Shown here: positions 14,483 through 32,320 of the stretch, in pieces | Numbering within the stretch: the stretch's first letter is position 1 | Layout: every line of letters starts with the position of its first letter | Source of the DNA: a bacterium | GTDB lineage: Bacteria > Myxococcota_A > UBA9160 > UBA4427 | Length of the DNA: 64,000 bases | Assembly (NCBI GenBank): GCA_024742285.1 | Contig: JANSYR010000001.1 | Coordinates: forward strand, 62,001-126,000 | Direction: 5' to 3' | Translations under genes and position numbers: made by a program | Notes under the pieces: model-generated | The model's database searches: none | What the model saw: only the letters and a program-made list of their open reading frames with translations | Told to the model about the DNA's origin: nothing

Positions 14483-15607
14483 TCAGATCTCGAAGCCGTA
14501 GACCCGCGCCGCGTTGCCCGCCAGGACCGCGTGCTTGTCTTCTTCGGTCAGACCTCGCGTGAGCTTCGTGATGTGCTCCTTCGAGTCCGGCCAGAGCGTC
14601 ACGCTGTGCGGATAGTCGGTCGAGTACATCGTCGACCGGGCGAGCCCCGGGGAGCCGCCGCGGATCAGGTCGTAACCCACGTGATCGTCGAGGCTCGTCG
14701 TGAAGACGTTCTCGCCGACGAAGCTCGAGGGCGCGCAGTCGATCGTCGCCGGCGCCCACGCCTTCTGGGTCTCCCACTCCTGGTCCATCGTCTGGAGCCA
14801 GAACGGAATCCATCCGAAGTTCACCTCTGCGGCGACGACCTTGAGCGTCGGATGCCGCTGGAAGATCCCCGCGAAGATCATGTACGTGAGGGGACGGACC
14901 GCACAGAAGAAGCGGCTCGCGATTCCCGGCACGCTCACGTTCTGCTCGACGAGCTCGTCCCAGTCCTGGTCCGGCGGCGCACCGCCGAAGGTCCGGTGGA
15001 ACGAGAGCGGGATCCCGGCCTCGGCCGCGGCCTTCCACAGGGGCTCGTAGTAGCCGTCGTTGTAGGGGCGCTTCGGCATCCCGGGCAGGAAGCCCGCGCG
15101 CGATCCCTTGGCGACGCAGCGTTCGAGCTCGGCGATCGCGACGTCCATTCCATCGTCGACGGGCAGGAGACTGAAGCCGACGATCCGCTTCGGGTCCGCC
15201 GCGACGAACTCCTCCTGCATCCAGTCGTTGTAGGAGCGCATGCAGGCGATCCCCAGCTCCCGGTCCTCGGTCATGTAGGTGAAGATCGCCTGGTTCGGGT
15301 AGACCACGACGCCCCCGGTCACGCCGTCGAGCTCCATGTCGGCGAGATGGGCGGTGCCGTCGTAATTGCCCTTCAGGATCTCGTCCCAGGAGAGACCGTC
15401 GAGCTTGTAGTCGTCCTTCGAGCGACCGGCCATCGCCTCGATCCCGAAGGTGCGCTTCGGCGGCCCCCCGTCGAAGCTCCACCCGTGCCCTCCATCGGCG
15501 CCGGGCAGCATCTTCGGTGCGCGATCGCGCATCGAGGCCGGCACGCGGTCGAAGACGTGCGGCGGCTCGTTCACGTGGTTGTCGGCGGAGATGACGATCT
15601 GGCTCAT
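14483..15607 (-). CDS. Amidohydrolase_2-type metal-dependent hydrolase/decarboxylase
   Basis: Protein of 374 residues. It opens with the metal-site strand ISADNHVNEPP, has a histidine in SFHRTFGG and ends with the catalytic aspartate motif STDYPHSVTLWPDS followed by a NAARVYG helix, all typical of the ACMSD-related amidohydrolase_2 group. Members decarboxylate aromatic acids or hydrolyse C-C or C-N bonds. Position before an aldehyde dehydrogenase gene fits a degradation pathway that releases an aldehyde, but this is inference. Confidence 0.88.
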   Translation of the reverse strand: MSQIVISADNHVNEPPHVFDRVPASMRDRAPKMLPGADGGHGWSFDGGPPKRTFGIEAMAGRSKDDYKLDGLSWDEILKGNYDGTAHLADMELDGVTGGVVVYPNQAIFTYMTEDRELGIACMRSYNDWMQEEFVAADPKRIVGFSLLPVDDGMDVAIAELERCVAKGSRAGFLPGMPKRPYNDGYYEPLWKAAAEAGIPLSFHRTFGGAPPDQDWDELVEQNVSVPGIASRFFCAVRPLTYMIFAGIFQRHPTLKVVAAEVNFGWIPFWLQTMDQEWETQKAWAPATIDCAPSSFVGENVFTTSLDDHVGYDLIRGGSPGLARSTMYSTDYPHSVTLWPDSKEHITKLTRGLTEEDKHAVLAGNAARVYGFEI

Positions 15608-22296: not shown

Positions 22297-23457
22297 CTAC
22301 TCGCCGAGCCAGTCCCGGAAGACTTCGGCATCGTGCGCGCCGACCTCGGGGCCCACGTGCCGATGGCGCCCCGGTGTGTCCGACAGCTGCGGCGCCGGCG
22401 CGACGAATCGGAGCGGACCCATCCGCGGATCCTCGAGCGTCGTGACGCTCGATCTCGCGCGCACGTGGGGATCCTCGAGGATCGCGTCGAGGTCGTTCAC
22501 CGGGGCGACCGGAATCCGGATCCCGTGGAACGCCTCGAGGGCTTCGTCGCGGGACCGCTCCGCGATCCAGGCCGCGACGTGACCGTCGAGCTCGTCCGCC
22601 GCCGCGAGTCGCGCTTCGCTCGTCCCGAAGCGTTCGCGGTCCGCCGGACCGTCGCGCCCCAGGAGCGTGAGGATCCGGGCCACCTGCGCGTCGGTCGTCC
22701 CCGAGAGCGCGAGATAGTCGCCGTCCCGCGCCCGGTAGAGGTTGCGCGGCACGCCGCCGGCGACCCGACTGCCCATGCGCGCGGGCGGAGGGCCTTGGCC
22801 GTCCCAGGTGACGAGCGGGAGCGCGAGCAGCTGCAGGATCGGCTCGACCATCGTCACGTCGACGTGCTGTCCCCGACCGGTCCCGCCCGGTCGGTCCCGG
22901 GCGTAGAGCGCCATCATCGTGCCGATCACGCCGGACAGCCCCGAGAGCGTGTCTCCGAGCGGCAGCGACGGCACCATCGGCGGCCCCTCGGCTTCCCCGT
23001 TCAGGTGCGCGAAGCCGGAGAAGGCCTCCGCCAGGGTCCCGGCCCCCGCGCGATCCGCGTAGGGCCCCGTCCGTCCGTAGCAGGAGATGCTCGTCACCAC
23101 GAGCCGGGGATGGCGCGCCGACAGCGTCGCGTAGTCGCAACCCCAGCGCGTGAGCAGCTTCGTCGTCAGGTTCTCGACCAGGACGTCGGCTTCCGCCAGG
23201 AGGCGCTCGAAGCGCGCGCGATCCGCCGCGTCGTCGAGATCGAGGGCGATGCTGCGCTTGTTCCGCGCGACCAGCGCCCACTGCGGCGACGCTCCGTCCC
23301 TCGACACGCCGATCCGGCGGATCGGATCGCCCCCCGGTGGCTCGACCTTGACCACGTCCGCCCCGAAATCCGCGAGGGTGGCGGCGATCTGCGGGGCCGC
23401 GAAGAGATTCGTCAGATCGAGGACACGGACCCCCGACAGGGCCTGGGCTTCCGGCAT
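22297..23457 (-). CDS. CaiB/BaiF family III CoA-transferase (3)
   Basis: Protein of 386 residues with [12 protein letters not shown] near 33-44, VARNKRSIALDL near 62-75 and the likely catalytic aspartate in PLGDTLSG. It is clearly a different subgroup from the other two in this window. No ribosome site is visible before the ATG, but TAGTGT, a plausible -10 hexamer, ends about 8 bases upstream on this strand. It is divergent from the selenoprotein gene with 106 bases between, so the two could share control. Confidence 0.9.
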   Translation of the reverse strand: MPEAQALSGVRVLDLTNLFAAPQIAATLADFGADVVKVEPPGGDPIRRIGVSRDGASPQWALVARNKRSIALDLDDAADRARFERLLAEADVLVENLTTKLLTRWGCDYATLSARHPRLVVTSISCYGRTGPYADRAGAGTLAEAFSGFAHLNGEAEGPPMVPSLPLGDTLSGLSGVIGTMMALYARDRPGGTGRGQHVDVTMVEPILQLLALPLVTWDGQGPPPARMGSRVAGGVPRNLYRARDGDYLALSGTTDAQVARILTLLGRDGPADRERFGTSEARLAAADELDGHVAAWIAERSRDEALEAFHGIRIPVAPVNDLDAILEDPHVRARSSVTTLEDPRMGPLRFVAPAPQLSDTPGRHRHVGPEVGAHDAEVFRDWLGE

Positions 23458-23524: not shown

Positions 23525-23563
23525 CGGCGCTTCGATTCGAACGCTCGAAGCAGGAGACCCGAT

Positions 23564-24097
23564 ATGTCCCGCATCACGATCCTCGACCCCACCGCCCCGC
23601 CGCCCGACGTCGACGCCGACCCCGGCCCGACCCTGGGCGCCACGGCGTCCACCCGGTTCGGCATCCGCTACGACCTCACCTGGCGCTCCTTCGACTGGGT
23701 GCGCGACGAGTGGGCGTCGATGCTCGCCGACGAAGGCGGCGTCGTGACACAATGGTGTGCCGGCGACCGAACCGGGGAAGCCGCCGAAGCGACCCTCGGC
23801 GACCTGCGCGGCTTCGTCACGGATCGGGAGGTGCTGATCAGCGGCCTCGGAAATTGAGGGAGCTGTACCTCCTGGACGGTGCACGACGCGGTCGTCGCAC
23901 TGCAGGAGGGCAAGACGGCGGTCGCCGTCGTGACTTCCGAGTTCGAAGCCCTGGCGCACACGATGGCCGCGAACGCCGGTCGCTCTGGCCTTCGCGTTCA
24001 CGTCCTGCCCTATCCCCTCGACAGTCGCCCCGAGAAGGAGGTGCGTGAGATTGCAAGAGAGCACTATCGACCGCTCTTGCGGACCCTCGGGTTGTGA
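23564..24097 (+). CDS. UGSC-family selenoprotein (in-frame UGA at 23855-23857)
   Basis: Read straight through the UGA at 23855-23857, this frame gives 177 residues with Sec98 in GLGN-U-GSC-TSW. Ignoring the UGA leaves a 97-residue fragment, and no start codon with a ribosome site explains the second half. Both halves share one frame and the second half keeps family-like character (VAVVTSEFEALAHT, HVLPYPLDSRP), so this is recoding rather than a broken gene. The U-G-S-C motif is the one that names the UGSC (seleno)protein family, as I recall it; function unknown, and U-x-x-C suggests redox chemistry. A strong hairpin lies 11 bases after the UGA. AGGAG precedes the ATG. The partner gene overlaps its last 53 bases. 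Confidence 0.85.
23868..23909 (+). promoter_or_regulatory. Putative bacterial SECIS hairpin
   Basis: Lower stem: CCTCCTG (23868-23874) with CAGGAGG (23903-23909), 7 perfect pairs. After an asymmetric bulge the upper stem pairs GTGC (23879-23882) with GCAC (23897-23900) and ACGAC (23883-23887) with GTCGT (23891-23895), with C23896 bulged. The loop is GCG (23888-23890), 31-33 bases after the UGA. Loop distance, a G at the start of the loop and an upper stem of at least 4 pairs fit the bacterial SECIS rules as I know them. Confidence 0.7.
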
Positions 24098-25160
24098 GGT
24101 CAGCTGGCTGTCGAGCCAGCGCCTCGAGATCGACGCGGACCCGTCGGCCTTCGCGAAGCTCGCGACCGAAGCGGGCTGGGGAGACGGCCTGCCGCTGATC
24201 CCGCCGACCGAAGAGCGCGTGCGCGCCTTCGTCGCCGCCTCGGGCCGCTTTCCCGATCAGCTGCTGGGCGTCCTGCCGCCCCGGGACGGGCGCTGCACCG
24301 TCGAGAAGCTCGCGATCAACGCGGTCATGGCCGGCGCGCCGGCGGAGGCGATGCCGCTTCTCTGCACTGCGATCGAAGCCTGCGTCGACCCGGCCCTCGA
24401 CCTCTTCTCACTCAACACGACGACCAGCTCGGTCGTTCCGGGCGTCTTCGTGAACGGACCGATCCGTCACTCCCTCGAGCTGCCGATGGAAGCGGGGTGC
24501 TTCGGGGGCGTGCCGGGGACGGCGCCGGCGATCGGACGCGCGCTGCGCCTCACGATGCGCAACATCGGCGGCCAGAAGATCGGCGAGAACTCGAAGAGCG
24601 TCTTCGGACAGCCGGGACGGGTGACCGGGATCGTCGTCGCCGAGTGGGAGGAACGCTCTCCCTGGGCGCCCCTCGCCGAGCGCCGCGGGGTGACGGGCGA
24701 CGCGGTCACGGTCTACGGCTGCATCGGCACGATGGACATCGCCGACGTCGCCGCCGACACGGGCCGGACCCTCACCGAGCTCATCGGCAAGAGCCTCGCC
24801 TACCCGGGCACCAACGCCTACGTCAGTCACTGGGGTGCCGAGACGATGGTCTGCCTCGCCCCGCCGTGGGCCGACCTGATCGCCAAGGACTTCCCGACGA
24901 TCGAAGACACGCAGGAGGCGCTCTGGCACGCTGCGGCCCATCCCATCGACTTCTTTCCGGAGCCCCATCGGGCCTGGCTCGAGGAGCGGGGCCGCATCGA
25001 CGCGCAGGGGATCGCGCACCTGGTGGAGCGCCCCGACGAGATCCTCGTGATGGTCTGCGGCGGCCTCGGCAACCTGCATGCGTTGGGCCTGCACAACTTC
25101 GGCCCGACGCGCGCGGTCACGCGCGCGATCCGCGCCGAGGAAGACTCGAACGAGACCTAG
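24045..25160 (+). CDS. Conserved-looking partner of the UGSC selenoprotein, function unknown
   Basis: Protein of 371 residues from GTG at 24045, or 369 from TTG at 24051. AAGGAGG at 24035-24041 lies 3 bases before the GTG and 9 before the TTG, so TTG is well spaced. Either start overlaps the selenoprotein gene by about 50 bases in another frame, a sign of coupled translation. I do not recognise a named family. Visible landmarks are GWGDGLPLIPPTEERV, FSLNTTTSSVVPG, SVFGQPGRV and near the end VCGGLGNLHALGLHNFG. No signal peptide or membrane helix is seen, and there are several cysteines. Tight linkage suggests a complex or shared pathway with the selenoprotein. Confidence 0.8.
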   Translation: MRLQESTIDRSCGPSGCEVSWLSSQRLEIDADPSAFAKLATEAGWGDGLPLIPPTEERVRAFVAASGRFPDQLLGVLPPRDGRCTVEKLAINAVMAGAPAEAMPLLCTAIEACVDPALDLFSLNTTTSSVVPGVFVNGPIRHSLELPMEAGCFGGVPGTAPAIGRALRLTMRNIGGQKIGENSKSVFGQPGRVTGIVVAEWEERSPWAPLAERRGVTGDAVTVYGCIGTMDIADVAADTGRTLTELIGKSLAYPGTNAYVSHWGAETMVCLAPPWADLIAKDFPTIEDTQEALWHAAAHPIDFFPEPHRAWLEERGRIDAQGIAHLVERPDEILVMVCGGLGNLHALGLHNFGPTRAVTRAIRAEEDSNET

Positions 25161-25196: not shown

Positions 25197-26483
25197 TCAC
25201 GGGCGGTCGGCGCCTGACGCGTCGGTCCCGGACCGCTCCCGCCACTCCCGATCGACGATCAAGCGCGCGCCGCGCCGAAACGACAGGTAGGCCCACGCCC
25301 ACTGGAGTACGACGAAGAGACGATTCTTGAAGCCCACGAGGAAGTAGACGTGCACGAGGAGCCAGGCGATCCACGCCGGGAATCCCGCGAGCTCGAGCTT
25401 CCCGCGCTGGAGCACCGCCCGCTTGCGACCGATCGTCGCCATCTGCCCCTTGTCGACGTAGACGAACGCACGATCGTCGACTCGACCGGCCGCCATCCCG
25501 CGAATCCGCTTCGCGAGATAGGCGCCCTGCTGCATCGCGACCGGTGCGACGCCAGGGAGCGGCTCTCCTTCCCCGCCCTCGACGTGCGCCTGGTCGCCGG
25601 CCACGAACACTTCCGGACGATCCGGGAGCGAGAGATCCGGCCGGACGCGCACGCGCCCCTGCCGATCCAGCGCGCTCCGGAGCTGTTGGTTGAGCGGGCT
25701 CGCCGCGACGCCGGCGGCCCACAAGACCGTCCGCGCCTCCAGTCGCTCGTCACCGACCTCGACGCCCCGTTCGTCGACGGCGGTGACCAGGCTCTCCGCC
25801 CAGACCTGAACGCCGAGGCTCTCCAGGTCGCGAACCGCACGGCTCGACAGCCGCTCCGAGAACATCGGCAGGATCCGGGGGCCGGCTTCGATCAGGACGA
25901 CGCGGGCGAGCTTCGGATCGATCTCCCGGAAATCCCGGGACAACGTGAAGCGGCTCATCTCGCCGATCGCGCCGGCGAGCTCGACGCCCGTCGGCCCCCC
26001 GCCCACCACGGCGAACGTGAGCAGGGCGCGGCGAACGGCCGGATCCGACTCCTTCTCAGCCTCTTCGAAGGCGCGCAGGACCCGGCGTCGGATCTCGGTG
26101 GCCTGCGCCAGCGTCTTGAGACCGGGCGCATGGGGCTCCCAGTCGTCGCGGCCGAAATACGAGTGTCCCGCCCCGGCGGCCAGGACCAGCACGTCGTAGT
26201 CGAAGGACCCGCTCGCCGTCTCGATGCGGCGGGCATCGAGATCGATCCGCAGCACACGCTCCTGCCGGACCCGCACGTTCGGAGCGTGGGCGAGGAGCGA
26301 CCGGATGGGCGCAGCGATCTCGGCGGGACTCAGTCCGGCCATCGCGACCTGATAGAGCAGAGGCTGAAAGAGATGGTGGTTCCGCGCGTCGAAGAGCGTG
26401 ACTTCGACGTCGGGAGCACCTCCGAGATCGCGAGCGGCGCGCAAACCCGCGAATCCACCGCCGACGATGAGTACGCGTGTCAT
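25197..26483 (-). CDS. Type II NADH dehydrogenase (NDH-2 family)
   Basis: Protein of 428 residues. The first FAD site is VLIVGGGFAGLRAARDL at the N-terminus, the NAD(P)H site is VVGGGPTGVELAGAIGE, and PEVFVAGDQA holds the late FAD motif. The C-terminus has the hydrophobic and amphipathic segment (WIAWLLVHVYFLVGFKNR) that anchors NDH-2 to the membrane. It oxidises NADH and reduces quinone without pumping protons. It converges with the selenoprotein partner gene and is transcribed alone or with the gene behind it. Confidence 0.92.
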   Translation of the reverse strand: MTRVLIVGGGFAGLRAARDLGGAPDVEVTLFDARNHHLFQPLLYQVAMAGLSPAEIAAPIRSLLAHAPNVRVRQERVLRIDLDARRIETASGSFDYDVLVLAAGAGHSYFGRDDWEPHAPGLKTLAQATEIRRRVLRAFEEAEKESDPAVRRALLTFAVVGGGPTGVELAGAIGEMSRFTLSRDFREIDPKLARVVLIEAGPRILPMFSERLSSRAVRDLESLGVQVWAESLVTAVDERGVEVGDERLEARTVLWAAGVAASPLNQQLRSALDRQGRVRVRPDLSLPDRPEVFVAGDQAHVEGGEGEPLPGVAPVAMQQGAYLAKRIRGMAAGRVDDRAFVYVDKGQMATIGRKRAVLQRGKLELAGFPAWIAWLLVHVYFLVGFKNRLFVVLQWAWAYLSFRRGARLIVDREWRERSGTDASGADRP

Positions 26484-29067: not shown

Positions 29068-30347
29068 CAGGCCGCGGGGCGGATCTTGTACCGGACCGGC
29101 AGCGTCTTCAGACCGGCGACGAAGCTCGCCGAGATGTGGGTCGGATCGCCGGCGGGCTCGATCTCCTCGACCCGATTCGCGATCTCGAGGAACAGCGCGC
29201 GGGACGAGAGCCGGGCGACGTGGGCACCGAGGCAGAAATGCTCTCCGGTTCCGAAGCCCAGGTGGCGATTCGGATGGCGCTCGATGTCGAACTCGAAGGG
29301 ACGGTCGAAGACCGCCTCGTCCCGGTTCGCCGAGGCGTAGTACATGATCAGGTCTTCGCCGGCCTTCATCTTGACGCCACCGACCTCGGCGTCTCGGAGC
29401 AGGCGACGCTTCATGTAGTTGACCGGGGAGGTCCAACGGACGACCTCCTCGACCGTCGACTTGCCCATCGCCTCGGTCGGATTCGCCTTCAGCTTGCGCA
29501 TCTGGTCCGGGTTCTCGAGCAGTGCCTGCATCCCGCCGGAGATCGCGTTGCGGGTCGTATCGTGTCCGGCGGTGAAGACGATCAGGTAGTACCCGAAGAG
29601 CTCGAGGGGCGGCAGCGGCTCACCGTTGGGCATCTTCGCGTTCGCGAGCATGCTCGCGAGATCGTCGGTCGGGTTCTCGCGGCGATCGGCGATGATCCGC
29701 GTGAAGAGCGCACCGAAGTCCGCGAAGAGCTGCTTGCTCGCCTCCTGCCGGTCCGCGGCCTCGCGCTGGAGGTCCGGATCGTCGGCGGCGAAGAGCTGCT
29801 GGGTCAGCTCGAGGAGGAGGTCTTCGTCCTCGGGCTCGATGCCCAGGATCGTCGCCAGGACGCGAAGCGGGTGGCGTTGCGAGATCTGCTCGACGAAGTC
29901 GCACTCGCCCTCTTCACCGAGCTTGTCGATCTGGGCGCGCGCGCAGTCGGCCACGATCTCGTCGAGACGATGGATCGAGCGCGGCGTGAAGAAGCCGCTC
30001 GCCACCTTGCGGTAGTCGCGGTGCTCCGGCGGGTCCATCTCGATGATCGTGCGCATCGGCGGGCGGTTCTCGGGCGCGTCCATCCGCTGCAGCGTCTGGA
30101 CCTTGTCCATCAGGAACGGGCCCTCGCTGTTGCTGAAGATGTCCGGCTTGCACGAGATGCTCATGATGTCCGCGTGCCGCGTGATCGCGTAGAAGGGCGG
30201 ATGCGTGTCCGTCTCGACGTAGTGGACGGGCGAGTGGGCGCGGAGCTGGGTCCAGACCTCGTGGGGCTGACCGGCGACGCCGTAGTTCGCGGGCGTGATC
30301 AGGTCGTGGGGATCGATGTCGAGCGTGGGAACGGGGGCGGACGCCAT
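29067..30347 (-). CDS. Cytochrome P450 (2 of 3)
   Basis: Protein of 426 residues. I-helix AGHDTT is at 260-265, ExxR is E301/R304, and the haem ligand is C372 in FGTGEHFCLGAH. The layout, including LGFGTGEHFCLG, recalls bacterial CYPs that act on steroids, terpenoids or alkanes, such as mycobacterial CYP125/142, but the substrate is not proven. The start at 30347 has AGGAG 8 bases upstream. An 18-bp palindrome lies 19 bases upstream of the start and should control this gene and VOC A. Confidence 0.93.
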   Translation of the reverse strand: MASAPVPTLDIDPHDLITPANYGVAGQPHEVWTQLRAHSPVHYVETDTHPPFYAITRHADIMSISCKPDIFSNSEGPFLMDKVQTLQRMDAPENRPPMRTIIEMDPPEHRDYRKVASGFFTPRSIHRLDEIVADCARAQIDKLGEEGECDFVEQISQRHPLRVLATILGIEPEDEDLLLELTQQLFAADDPDLQREAADRQEASKQLFADFGALFTRIIADRRENPTDDLASMLANAKMPNGEPLPPLELFGYYLIVFTAGHDTTRNAISGGMQALLENPDQMRKLKANPTEAMGKSTVEEVVRWTSPVNYMKRRLLRDAEVGGVKMKAGEDLIMYYASANRDEAVFDRPFEFDIERHPNRHLGFGTGEHFCLGAHVARLSSRALFLEIANRVEEIEPAGDPTHISASFVAGLKTLPVRYKIRPAA

Positions 30348-30365
30348 GTCGGGGACTCCTCGAGA

Positions 30366-30383
30366 GGTGAACGATCGTTCACC
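30366..30383. promoter_or_regulatory. Perfect 18-bp palindrome, probable TetR-type operator
   Basis: GGTGAACGATCGTTCACC is its own reverse complement. It lies between a TAGACT -10-like hexamer (minus strand, 30398-30403) and the AGGAG ribosome site of the P450 2 gene, where a bound repressor would block transcription. Sites of the form GAACGNNCGTTC are common for TetR-family repressors. No tetR gene is in this window. Confidence 0.6.
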
Positions 30384-30455
30384 CGGTAGACGCAACCAGT
30401 CTAGCTTCCGAAATCGGCCCCCGGCAGGCCCCGCCTGAGGGGGAACTGCACCGGA

Positions 30456-30903: not shown

Positions 30904-32124
30904 CTATCCGAACAGGACGGGCAGGCTGCGCGGCGACCGGAAGGCCCGGCCCGTGATGTGGACGTCCTCGGCTGCGGGGTCGAGTCGCAGGTTCGGCAGC
31001 CGGTCGAGGAGCGCGTCGAGGCAGACCTTCGTCTCCATCCGCGCGAGGTGCATGCCGAGGCAGCGGTGGGGGCCGAAAGCGAAGGACATGTGCTGGCGCG
31101 GTGGACGATGGATGTCGAACTCGTCCGCGCGATCCCAACGCGTCTCGTCGCGATTGGCGGCACCGATCAGGACATGGACGTACGAGCCGGCGGGGATCTC
31201 GGTTCCGGCGACCTCGGTGTCTTCGACGCAGAGGCGTCCGATCCCGGTCAACGGCACTTCCCAACGGAGCCCTTCTTCGATCGCCTGGATCATCAACCCT
31301 CGGTCGTCGGCGAGTGCCTGCCACTGCTCCGGCTTCGAGAGCAGCCCGAAGATCAGGTTGCTCGAGGAGCGGTAGGTCGTCTCGGCGCCGGCGGGAAGGA
31401 GCAGGCGCAGGAAGCCGAGCACGTGCTCGTTGTCGAGTTCCTGTCCGTCGAGCTCGCCGGTCGCGAGCACGCTGATCAGATCCTTGCCGGGGTTCGCGCG
31501 ACGCGCGTCGATGATCGGCGTGAGGTACTCACCGAGCTGCTGGGAGCCCTGGATCCCTCGCATCGGATCGAGGGCGACGCTGATCACGTCGACGGCGCGC
31601 GCGTGGAACCAGGGAAGATCCTCCTCGGGCAACCCCAGCATGCCCGCGATCACGTGGACCGGAAACGGAAAGGTCAGCTCGCGAACGAGGTCGGCGGAGC
31701 CGCGATCCACGAAGGCATCGACCAGTCCGTGGACGACCGGATGGACGAGCTCCTGCTCCCAGACCTCGAGGGCCTTCTTGCTGAAGGCCTGCTGGATGAG
31801 CCGCCGGTATCGTCCGTGCTCGGGTTCGTCCATCACGAGGATGTTGGGGCCCATTACGGCGCCCATCGATTCGCGATAGGCACCGGAGGAGAAGATCCGC
31901 CCGTCTCGAAGGATCTCGGACACGGCGTCGTAGCTCACGGCGATGAAGCTCTTCTTCTCCTCGCCGAGCATGGCGGCCATCGCGCCGCTCGGAGCCGTAT
32001 CCTCGATCACGCCGGCCTTCGCCCGCATCGCCGCGAACTCCGGATACGGGTCGCGGCATTCGTCCATGCCCATCGCCGTGTCGAAGGCCTCGAAGGGATC
32101 GACTTCCTCGGTCGTCGCGCTCAT
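30904..32124 (-). CDS. Cytochrome P450 (3 of 3)
   Basis: Protein of 406 residues. I-helix AGAETT at 245-250, ExxR at E284/R287 and haem cysteine C355 in FGPHRCLGMH. It differs enough from P450 2 that they are not a recent duplication. The ATG at 32124 is preceded by GGAGG at about 7 bases; the open frame upstream has no start signal. It is followed by VOC B, mirroring the P450 2-VOC A arrangement just downstream. A GST gene lies 196 bases upstream on the same strand. Confidence 0.93.
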   Translation of the reverse strand: MSATTEEVDPFEAFDTAMGMDECRDPYPEFAAMRAKAGVIEDTAPSGAMAAMLGEEKKSFIAVSYDAVSEILRDGRIFSSGAYRESMGAVMGPNILVMDEPEHGRYRRLIQQAFSKKALEVWEQELVHPVVHGLVDAFVDRGSADLVRELTFPFPVHVIAGMLGLPEEDLPWFHARAVDVISVALDPMRGIQGSQQLGEYLTPIIDARRANPGKDLISVLATGELDGQELDNEHVLGFLRLLLPAGAETTYRSSSNLIFGLLSKPEQWQALADDRGLMIQAIEEGLRWEVPLTGIGRLCVEDTEVAGTEIPAGSYVHVLIGAANRDETRWDRADEFDIHRPPRQHMSFAFGPHRCLGMHLARMETKVCLDALLDRLPNLRLDPAAEDVHITGRAFRSPRSLPVLFG

Positions 32125-32320
32125 GGCCGCGCCTCCTGGACGGGGCCACGTCGCAAGGCCCACCCCACGAGCGTGGCGAGCGCGGCCGCAGGCGTCAAGC
32201 ACCCTCCGAGGCACGGCGATCCGGGCCGCGGACTGCGCACCCCGTGGGAGGGTCGCGGGTGACACGAAAACGCGAGCGTCGCTTCGAACGCGGACCGACT
32301 CCGGTTCCGGATTCGTCTGC

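Follow-up and report, generated by a model that had tools for sequence, protein, structure and literature searches.

A divergent UGSC-family selenoprotein gene and its constant partner gene: probable subunits of a GrdB/PrdB-like two-part reductase

The window, by which we mean the whole 64,000-nucleotide stretch of bacterial DNA that was analysed, is part of contig C1, in a genome assembly of 6.5 Mb that is 95% complete. Comparative sequence evidence identifies positions 23564-24097 of the window as a genuine selenocysteine (Sec) gene in which the UGA at codon 98 is decoded as Sec. We believe that this gene probably encodes the small catalytic Sec subunit of a two-part reductase resembling GrdB/PrdB, with the larger protein encoded next to it as its constant partner. 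This partner gene, which was absent from the initial annotation of the sequence, is more informative than the Sec reading alone.

The UGSC reading frame and its conservation

The features that define the gene are as follows.

23564..24097, + strand: UGSC-family selenoprotein gene, 177 aa with Sec98
23552..23556, + strand: Shine-Dalgarno-like AGGAG, 7 nt 5' of the ATG at 23564, as read from the sequence
23855..23857, + strand: in-frame TGA (Sec98) that opens the U-G-S-C motif (23855-23866) and aligns with TGA codons where homologues have Sec and with Cys codons where they have Cys

The initial annotation had described an AGGAG site, an ATG at 23564, a TGA at codon 98, 79 codons beyond it and the residues GLGN-U-GSC-TSW, all of which we find as read: the frame continues past codon 98 for 79 further sense codons, ending at the TGA at 24095-24097, and residues 94-104 are GLGN-U-GSCTSW. 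Its account of what automatic gene callers would produce holds in part. The shadow ORF at 23879-24097 exists, but the expected 97-residue fragment is not the only product upstream, as the frame is open there and a caller is also offered a 235-codon ORF from the GTG at 23150 to the TGA at 23855. Overlapping shadow ORFs of 500-600 codons occur in the ORF list of the window. Shadow ORFs of such length in GC-rich DNA make an open frame by itself weak evidence for the UGSC gene, and the case against a chance frame rests on homology, namely a Pfam match that crosses the TGA, the conserved TGA column, dN/dS, and Cys homologues of the same length.

Regarding family membership, Pfam model PF24696 (UGSC) matches residues 5-175 of the 177, across the TGA, with E = 5e-27 and 95.5 bits against a cut-off of 25, which confirms the family assignment of the initial annotation. 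The NCBIfam UGSC equivalog NF041046 scores 62.2 bits, below its cut-off of 125. By these profile scores the window copy lies inside the Pfam family and outside the NCBIfam equivalog. It has in common with the UGSC family the full-length Pfam match, the U-G-S-C motif, the length and the interchange of Sec and Cys; it differs in its sequence (about 19-27% identity to other UGSC subfamilies), in having the partner gene downstream rather than upstream, and in having no fdhF-type SECIS. Position 98 (Cys or Sec), G99 and C101 are invariant and S100 is at least 90% conserved in alignments of 19 and 41 sequences. The UGSC family is already known from metagenome surveys and a Pfam model, and the window copy is a divergent new member of it. 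The 2008 Global Ocean Sampling survey lists UGSC among the most abundant selenoprotein families (PMC2398784). Scanning of viral contigs recovered no UGSC relatives, an Rfam scan around the gene gave no match, and searching the PDB by sequence, with profiles of UGSC or of the partner, returned nothing credible.

When 84,980 species genomes were scanned for a pattern with an obligatory Cys codon, 62 relatives were recovered. Nearly full-length CGSC orthologues of the window copy account for 25 of these, at roughly 40-54% identity, in Phytohabitans, Oryzicola, Sphingobium, Rhizorhabdus, Tropicimonas, Frankia, Nocardia and others. Their length equals that of the read-through protein, and so the CGSC homologues that the initial annotation had proposed to look for do exist and do not end at the equivalent of residue 97. 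In a tree of 111 sequences the window subfamily separates as a distinct clade with good support, made up of 8 Sec and 24 Cys rows, and the tree as a whole requires 7 changes between the Sec and Cys labels, at least 3 of which are forced by well supported branches.

The Sec machinery that the initial annotation had expected elsewhere in the genome is present. We detected a tRNA-Sec with anticodon UCA (67.8 bits, above the Rfam cut-off) together with SelA (458 bits), SelB (283.9 bits) and SelD (259 bits), each over its curated cut-off. SelA is found in 75 of the 80 genomes of the order, so its presence does not discriminate within the order. The SelD sequence (L168, G000:C16:123873-124790) lies in a 791-residue open frame, which suggests an N-terminal oxidoreductase-domain fusion as in Ndh-SelD.

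The genome has five UGSC genes, the window copy and four paralogues, each with exactly one in-frame TGA. Of the 80 genomes of the order, 61 have UGSC genes. A single TGA is again the rule in their full-length copies, with very few departures; the clear ones are two copies of one genome (G062), which have Cys codons instead. In the copies that were inspected individually the TGA falls at the aligned column of the motif, and within the window subfamily it is kept in all 8 Sec orthologues compared. Among eight subfamily sequences dN/dS past the TGA is 0.025-0.23, with constraint stronger there than upstream of the TGA, and codons 99-105, which lie between the TGA and the start of the shadow ORF, are likewise conserved.

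A constant partner gene

The gene directly after the UGSC gene encodes a protein for which we obtained no Pfam or NCBIfam match.

24045..25160, + strand: constant partner protein, ~370 aa

Translation may begin at the GTG at 24045 or, more likely, at the TTG at 24051, which has AAGGAGG at 24035-24041; the two genes overlap by about 50 nt. Within the order the partner lies no more than 1 kb from 109 of 120 UGSC hits and always on the same strand, upstream in 92 cases and downstream, as in the window, in 17. Several of the 11 exceptions are partial UGSC hits. The 62 Cys-type loci come from Pseudomonadota, Actinomycetota, Bacillota, Haloarchaea and an Archaeoglobi MAG. Nearly all of them have the partner next to the UGSC gene or joined to it; at one (L097) it is about 3 kb off on the opposite strand. 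UGSC and partner form one polypeptide in a single open frame at 17 Cys-type loci.

A natural fusion with a Sec UGA is present on plasmid p2-T1 of Acidovorax sp. T1 (NZ_CP021650.1, L172 6419-7960), where one frame comprises the UGSC domain with its TGA at codon 97 and then most of the partner. The plasmid record annotates a hypothetical-protein stub of only 96 residues up to the UGA and nothing beyond, which bears out the view that genes of this type are mis-annotated; annotation loses both halves of such a gene. Plasmid p2-T1 is a conjugative IncP plasmid, and its fusion gene has a perfect 8-bp hairpin in the fdhF register with a GU loop. Other sequence, possibly a mobile element, appears to have taken the place of the 3' end of its partner portion.

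The 2008 survey reports a fusion of UGSC with a conserved domain of uncharacterised function termed Unknown_1 (PMC2398784, Fig. S1A). According to that source few organisms have Unknown_1, whereas the partner described here is nearly universal beside UGSC genes; Unknown_1 may well be the partner protein. Based on the conserved adjacency and the fusions, we strongly infer that UGSC and its partner make up a two-component enzyme.

Probable kinship with GrdB/PrdB and the proposed mechanism

Two-part organization is also a property of GrdB/PrdB, in which the Sec subunit works together with another subunit (PMC13188914). When a profile of 60 UGSC sequences was compared by hhalign with GrdB/PrdB-like selenoproteins of the same order, the match had a probability of 95 (E = 3e-8) over an aligned region of only about 60 columns and placed Sec on Sec, while 19 unrelated control families all gave probabilities below 3. 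One UGSC homologue (L146) also matched the GrdB model TIGR01917 across the motif, with E of 0.03. In the glycine, sarcosine, betaine and D-proline reductases (PF07355) Sec is similarly placed in a like domain, with a UxxC motif and, in the profile alignment, similar downstream blocks. Canonical UGSC proteins, canonical paralogues included, read UGSCTSC, which has the UxxCxxC spacing of GrdB (UGTCTRC in L149). The window subfamily reads UGSCTSW, with a Trp in place of the third Cys, and so departs from this spacing.

The likeness has limits beyond its length of about 60 columns. PF07355 (GRDB) is not among the families matched, up to an E of 10, by 19 UGSC members, and in the profile comparison that was made the partner had no homology to GrdB. 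Because PF07355 does not recognise UGSC proteins, we class the UGSC Sec domain as a remote relative of the GrdB/PrdB Sec domain, apparently at the superfamily level, and not as a member of GrdB.

The order also has a second selenoprotein family, short and GrdB/PrdB-like, which in the genome of the window has a UPVC motif (VPVUPVCHQSVG; L171, G000:C15:135500-137500, match at C15:136325-136675 on the - strand). Of the 18 short GrdB-like loci that were read in the order, 17 have an in-frame TGA with a UPxC motif just past the PF07355 match.

We propose that Sec98 and Cys101 constitute the active site, that the partner is the substrate-binding part, and that the chemistry would be reductive in the manner of GrdB/PrdB. 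In this scheme a small substrate, carboxylic or CoA-activated, would be bound and activated by the partner and then attacked by the Sec selenolate at a carbon-heteroatom (or oxidised) centre. Cys101 would resolve the resulting adduct to Se-S, which would be recycled by a dithiol system of the thioredoxin type. In the predicted structure described below, Sec98 and Cys101, three residues on, appear able to form a selenenyl-sulfide.

Genomic neighbourhood and the question of non-reductive chemistry

The genes around the locus are as follows.

22297..23457, - strand: class III CoA-transferase (PF02515), divergent neighbour; recurs near subfamily UGSC pairs and in haloarchaea
25197-26483, - strand: FAD/NAD(P) disulfide-oxidoreductase-type gene
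29070-30395 and 30907-32265, - strand: two cytochrome P450 genes
14486-15607, - strand: amidohydrolase gene

A class III CoA-transferase lies near 22 of the 34 loci of the window subfamily, loci that are related to each other so that the 22 are not independent events, and is found near UGSC genes in haloarchaea as well. The genome of the window has 55 CoA-transferase III genes; one nearby copy is thus unsurprising and the association alone is weak. Recurrence in the 22 loci and in haloarchaea nevertheless argues for an association that is real though loose. Around UGSC pairs we also observed genes for acyl-CoA ligase, SDR and enoyl-CoA hydratase, and carboxylate transporters, and at other loci tripartite tricarboxylate transporter and isocitrate lyase/PEP mutase genes. 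Plasmid 3 of Variovorax sp. SRS16 has a thioredoxin-reductase-like gene annotated as trxB (L173 4101-5048) a few genes upstream of a partner and UGSC pair of the Cys type; the strain comes from linuron-contaminated soil. Collectively these neighbours point to small carboxylates or their CoA esters without fixing one substrate.

In related genomes, too, cytochrome P450 and amidohydrolase genes are repeatedly found close to UGSC pairs. Genes for aconitase X and DUF126 adjoin partner-domain genes in two unrelated bacteria, on plasmid pSPTER of Sporomusa termitida (L175), where the gene is a UGSC-partner fusion, and on pVEu of Vibrio europaeus (L176), where it encodes 561 aa and has no UGSC Pfam hit. 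These neighbours may hint at the substrate; the aconitase X/DUF126 family is known to include dehydratases of the cis-3-hydroxyproline type.

CoA-transferases, lyases and mutases are not dedicated reductases, and they could fit an enzyme that uses Sec as nucleophile or ligand to act on CoA esters, amino acids or hydroxy acids in the manner of a racemase, isomerase or transferase. Some enzymes of that sort likewise have a Rossmann-like domain with an active Cys, and Cys versions of UGSC are widespread and evidently functional, which leaves a redox cycle through Se unproven. The second Cys at +3, however, is nearly invariant in both Sec and Cys forms, as is typical of a resolving thiol, and the similarity to the Sec region of GrdB likewise speaks against a non-reductive enzyme. 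On balance we regard non-reductive chemistry as unlikely and favor the two-part reductase.

Predicted fold

AlphaFold2 modelled the window protein with a mean pLDDT of 94.8 as five strands alternating with helices, with Sec98 placed between strand 90-96 and helix 99-114. The best structural matches of this model are Rossmann- or flavodoxin-like proteins and alpha/beta proteins of the nucleotide-binding type, at Z of 9-11. A natural UGSC-partner fusion was also modelled with high confidence (pLDDT 93.4, pTM 0.93), and in a Foldseek search with the 560-residue fusion model the listed matches were all taken up by the UGSC domain.

A thioredoxin-like fold, and with it a role as a redox protein of that kind, was proposed for UGSC in 2008 (PMC2398784). 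As put forward in that source the proposal agrees with the UxxC motif and with the general redox role of Sec. The predicted structure does not suggest it: the model consists of beta-alpha units with a Rossmann-like core of five strands and has matches of the flavodoxin and nucleotide-binding type. No thioredoxin-type entries were among the listed structural matches, an absence that by itself excludes nothing. Furthermore, a constant partner of ~360 residues would be unusual for a small thioredoxin-like protein, and the profile kinship is with GrdB. We therefore consider a thioredoxin-like UGSC protein quite improbable. The Rossmann-like fold is itself widespread and says nothing of UGSC function.

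Returning to the GrdB/PrdB-like reductase, a broader claim would be that UGSC and its unmodelled partner represent a previously unrecognised class of two-component selenoenzyme. Such a class would have a GrdB/PrdB-like Sec domain outside the Stickland fermenters (haloarchaea included, in Cys form), would have diversified within one genome into five or more paralogous pairs that act on different carboxylates or CoA-linked substrates, and would use, in the window subfamily, a SECIS geometry unlike that of fdhF. We offer this as a plausible conjecture while leaning somewhat against it in its full extent. Further work would be well spent on the partner, the fusions, the GrdB link and the unusual SECIS. 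Together with Cys versions in culturable strains (Sphingobium, Frankia, Natrinema), the first three would turn an "unknown redox protein" into a two-subunit enzyme open to expression and assay.

The selenocysteine insertion signal

Three positions after the UGA are relevant to Sec insertion.

23869..23887, + strand: fdhF-register SECIS position (+12..+30 after the UGA), decayed; intact in other UGSC subfamilies
23879..23898, + strand: candidate alternative insertion hairpin (+22..+41), 8 bp with one 5' bulge and loop +31..+33
23864-23883, + strand: second candidate hairpin (+7..+26), 6 bp

Among 38 Sec copies of other UGSC subfamilies 94% of the pair cells of the +12..+30 hairpin are paired. 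Compensatory changes are seen from C-G to G-C at +18/+24 and among U-A, A-U, G-U and C-G at +16/+26, and GU stands at loop positions +20/+21 in 92% of the copies. E. coli fdhF, whose sequence was verified in 5,368 E. coli genomes, also has GU at +20/+21. These positions correspond to G23 and U24 of the fdhF SECIS, which PMC8659212 names among the key positions of its apical loop. Cys homologues show 62-70% pairing and 0-6% GU in this register. The window subfamily, at 68% pairing and 0% GU, resembles the Cys genes, and the window copy has mismatches at +12/+30, +15/+27 and +18/+24 and a loop without GU. The window copy could not be fitted to the fdhF register.

This degraded hairpin would suit a true stop at the TGA, which would yield a 97-residue protein and an unrelated short ORF or mark a decaying pseudogene, but we give that reading almost no credence, as it is ruled out by retention of the TGA in 8 of 8 orthologues and by purifying selection past it, where changes are mostly synonymous, codons 99-105 are conserved and Cys homologues run straight through.

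The +22..+41 hairpin is a tentative lead as the insertion signal of the window copy. Among 7 distinct Sec sequences of the subfamily 95% of its pairs are kept, versus 46% among the 25 Cys orthologues; the hairpin was chosen from a scan of many geometries in these seven related sequences, and protein differences too lower the pairing of the Cys set. The +7..+26 hairpin is 90% kept in subfamily Sec members versus 39-47% in Cys relatives.

Variants of the motif occur in the same order, UGGC in one locus (L038) and UGAC in a second copy in another (L052) that is cut at the contig end. A further UGSC homologue (G057:C28:16826-17242) has two TGA codons and one TAG in frame and is probably a decaying copy.
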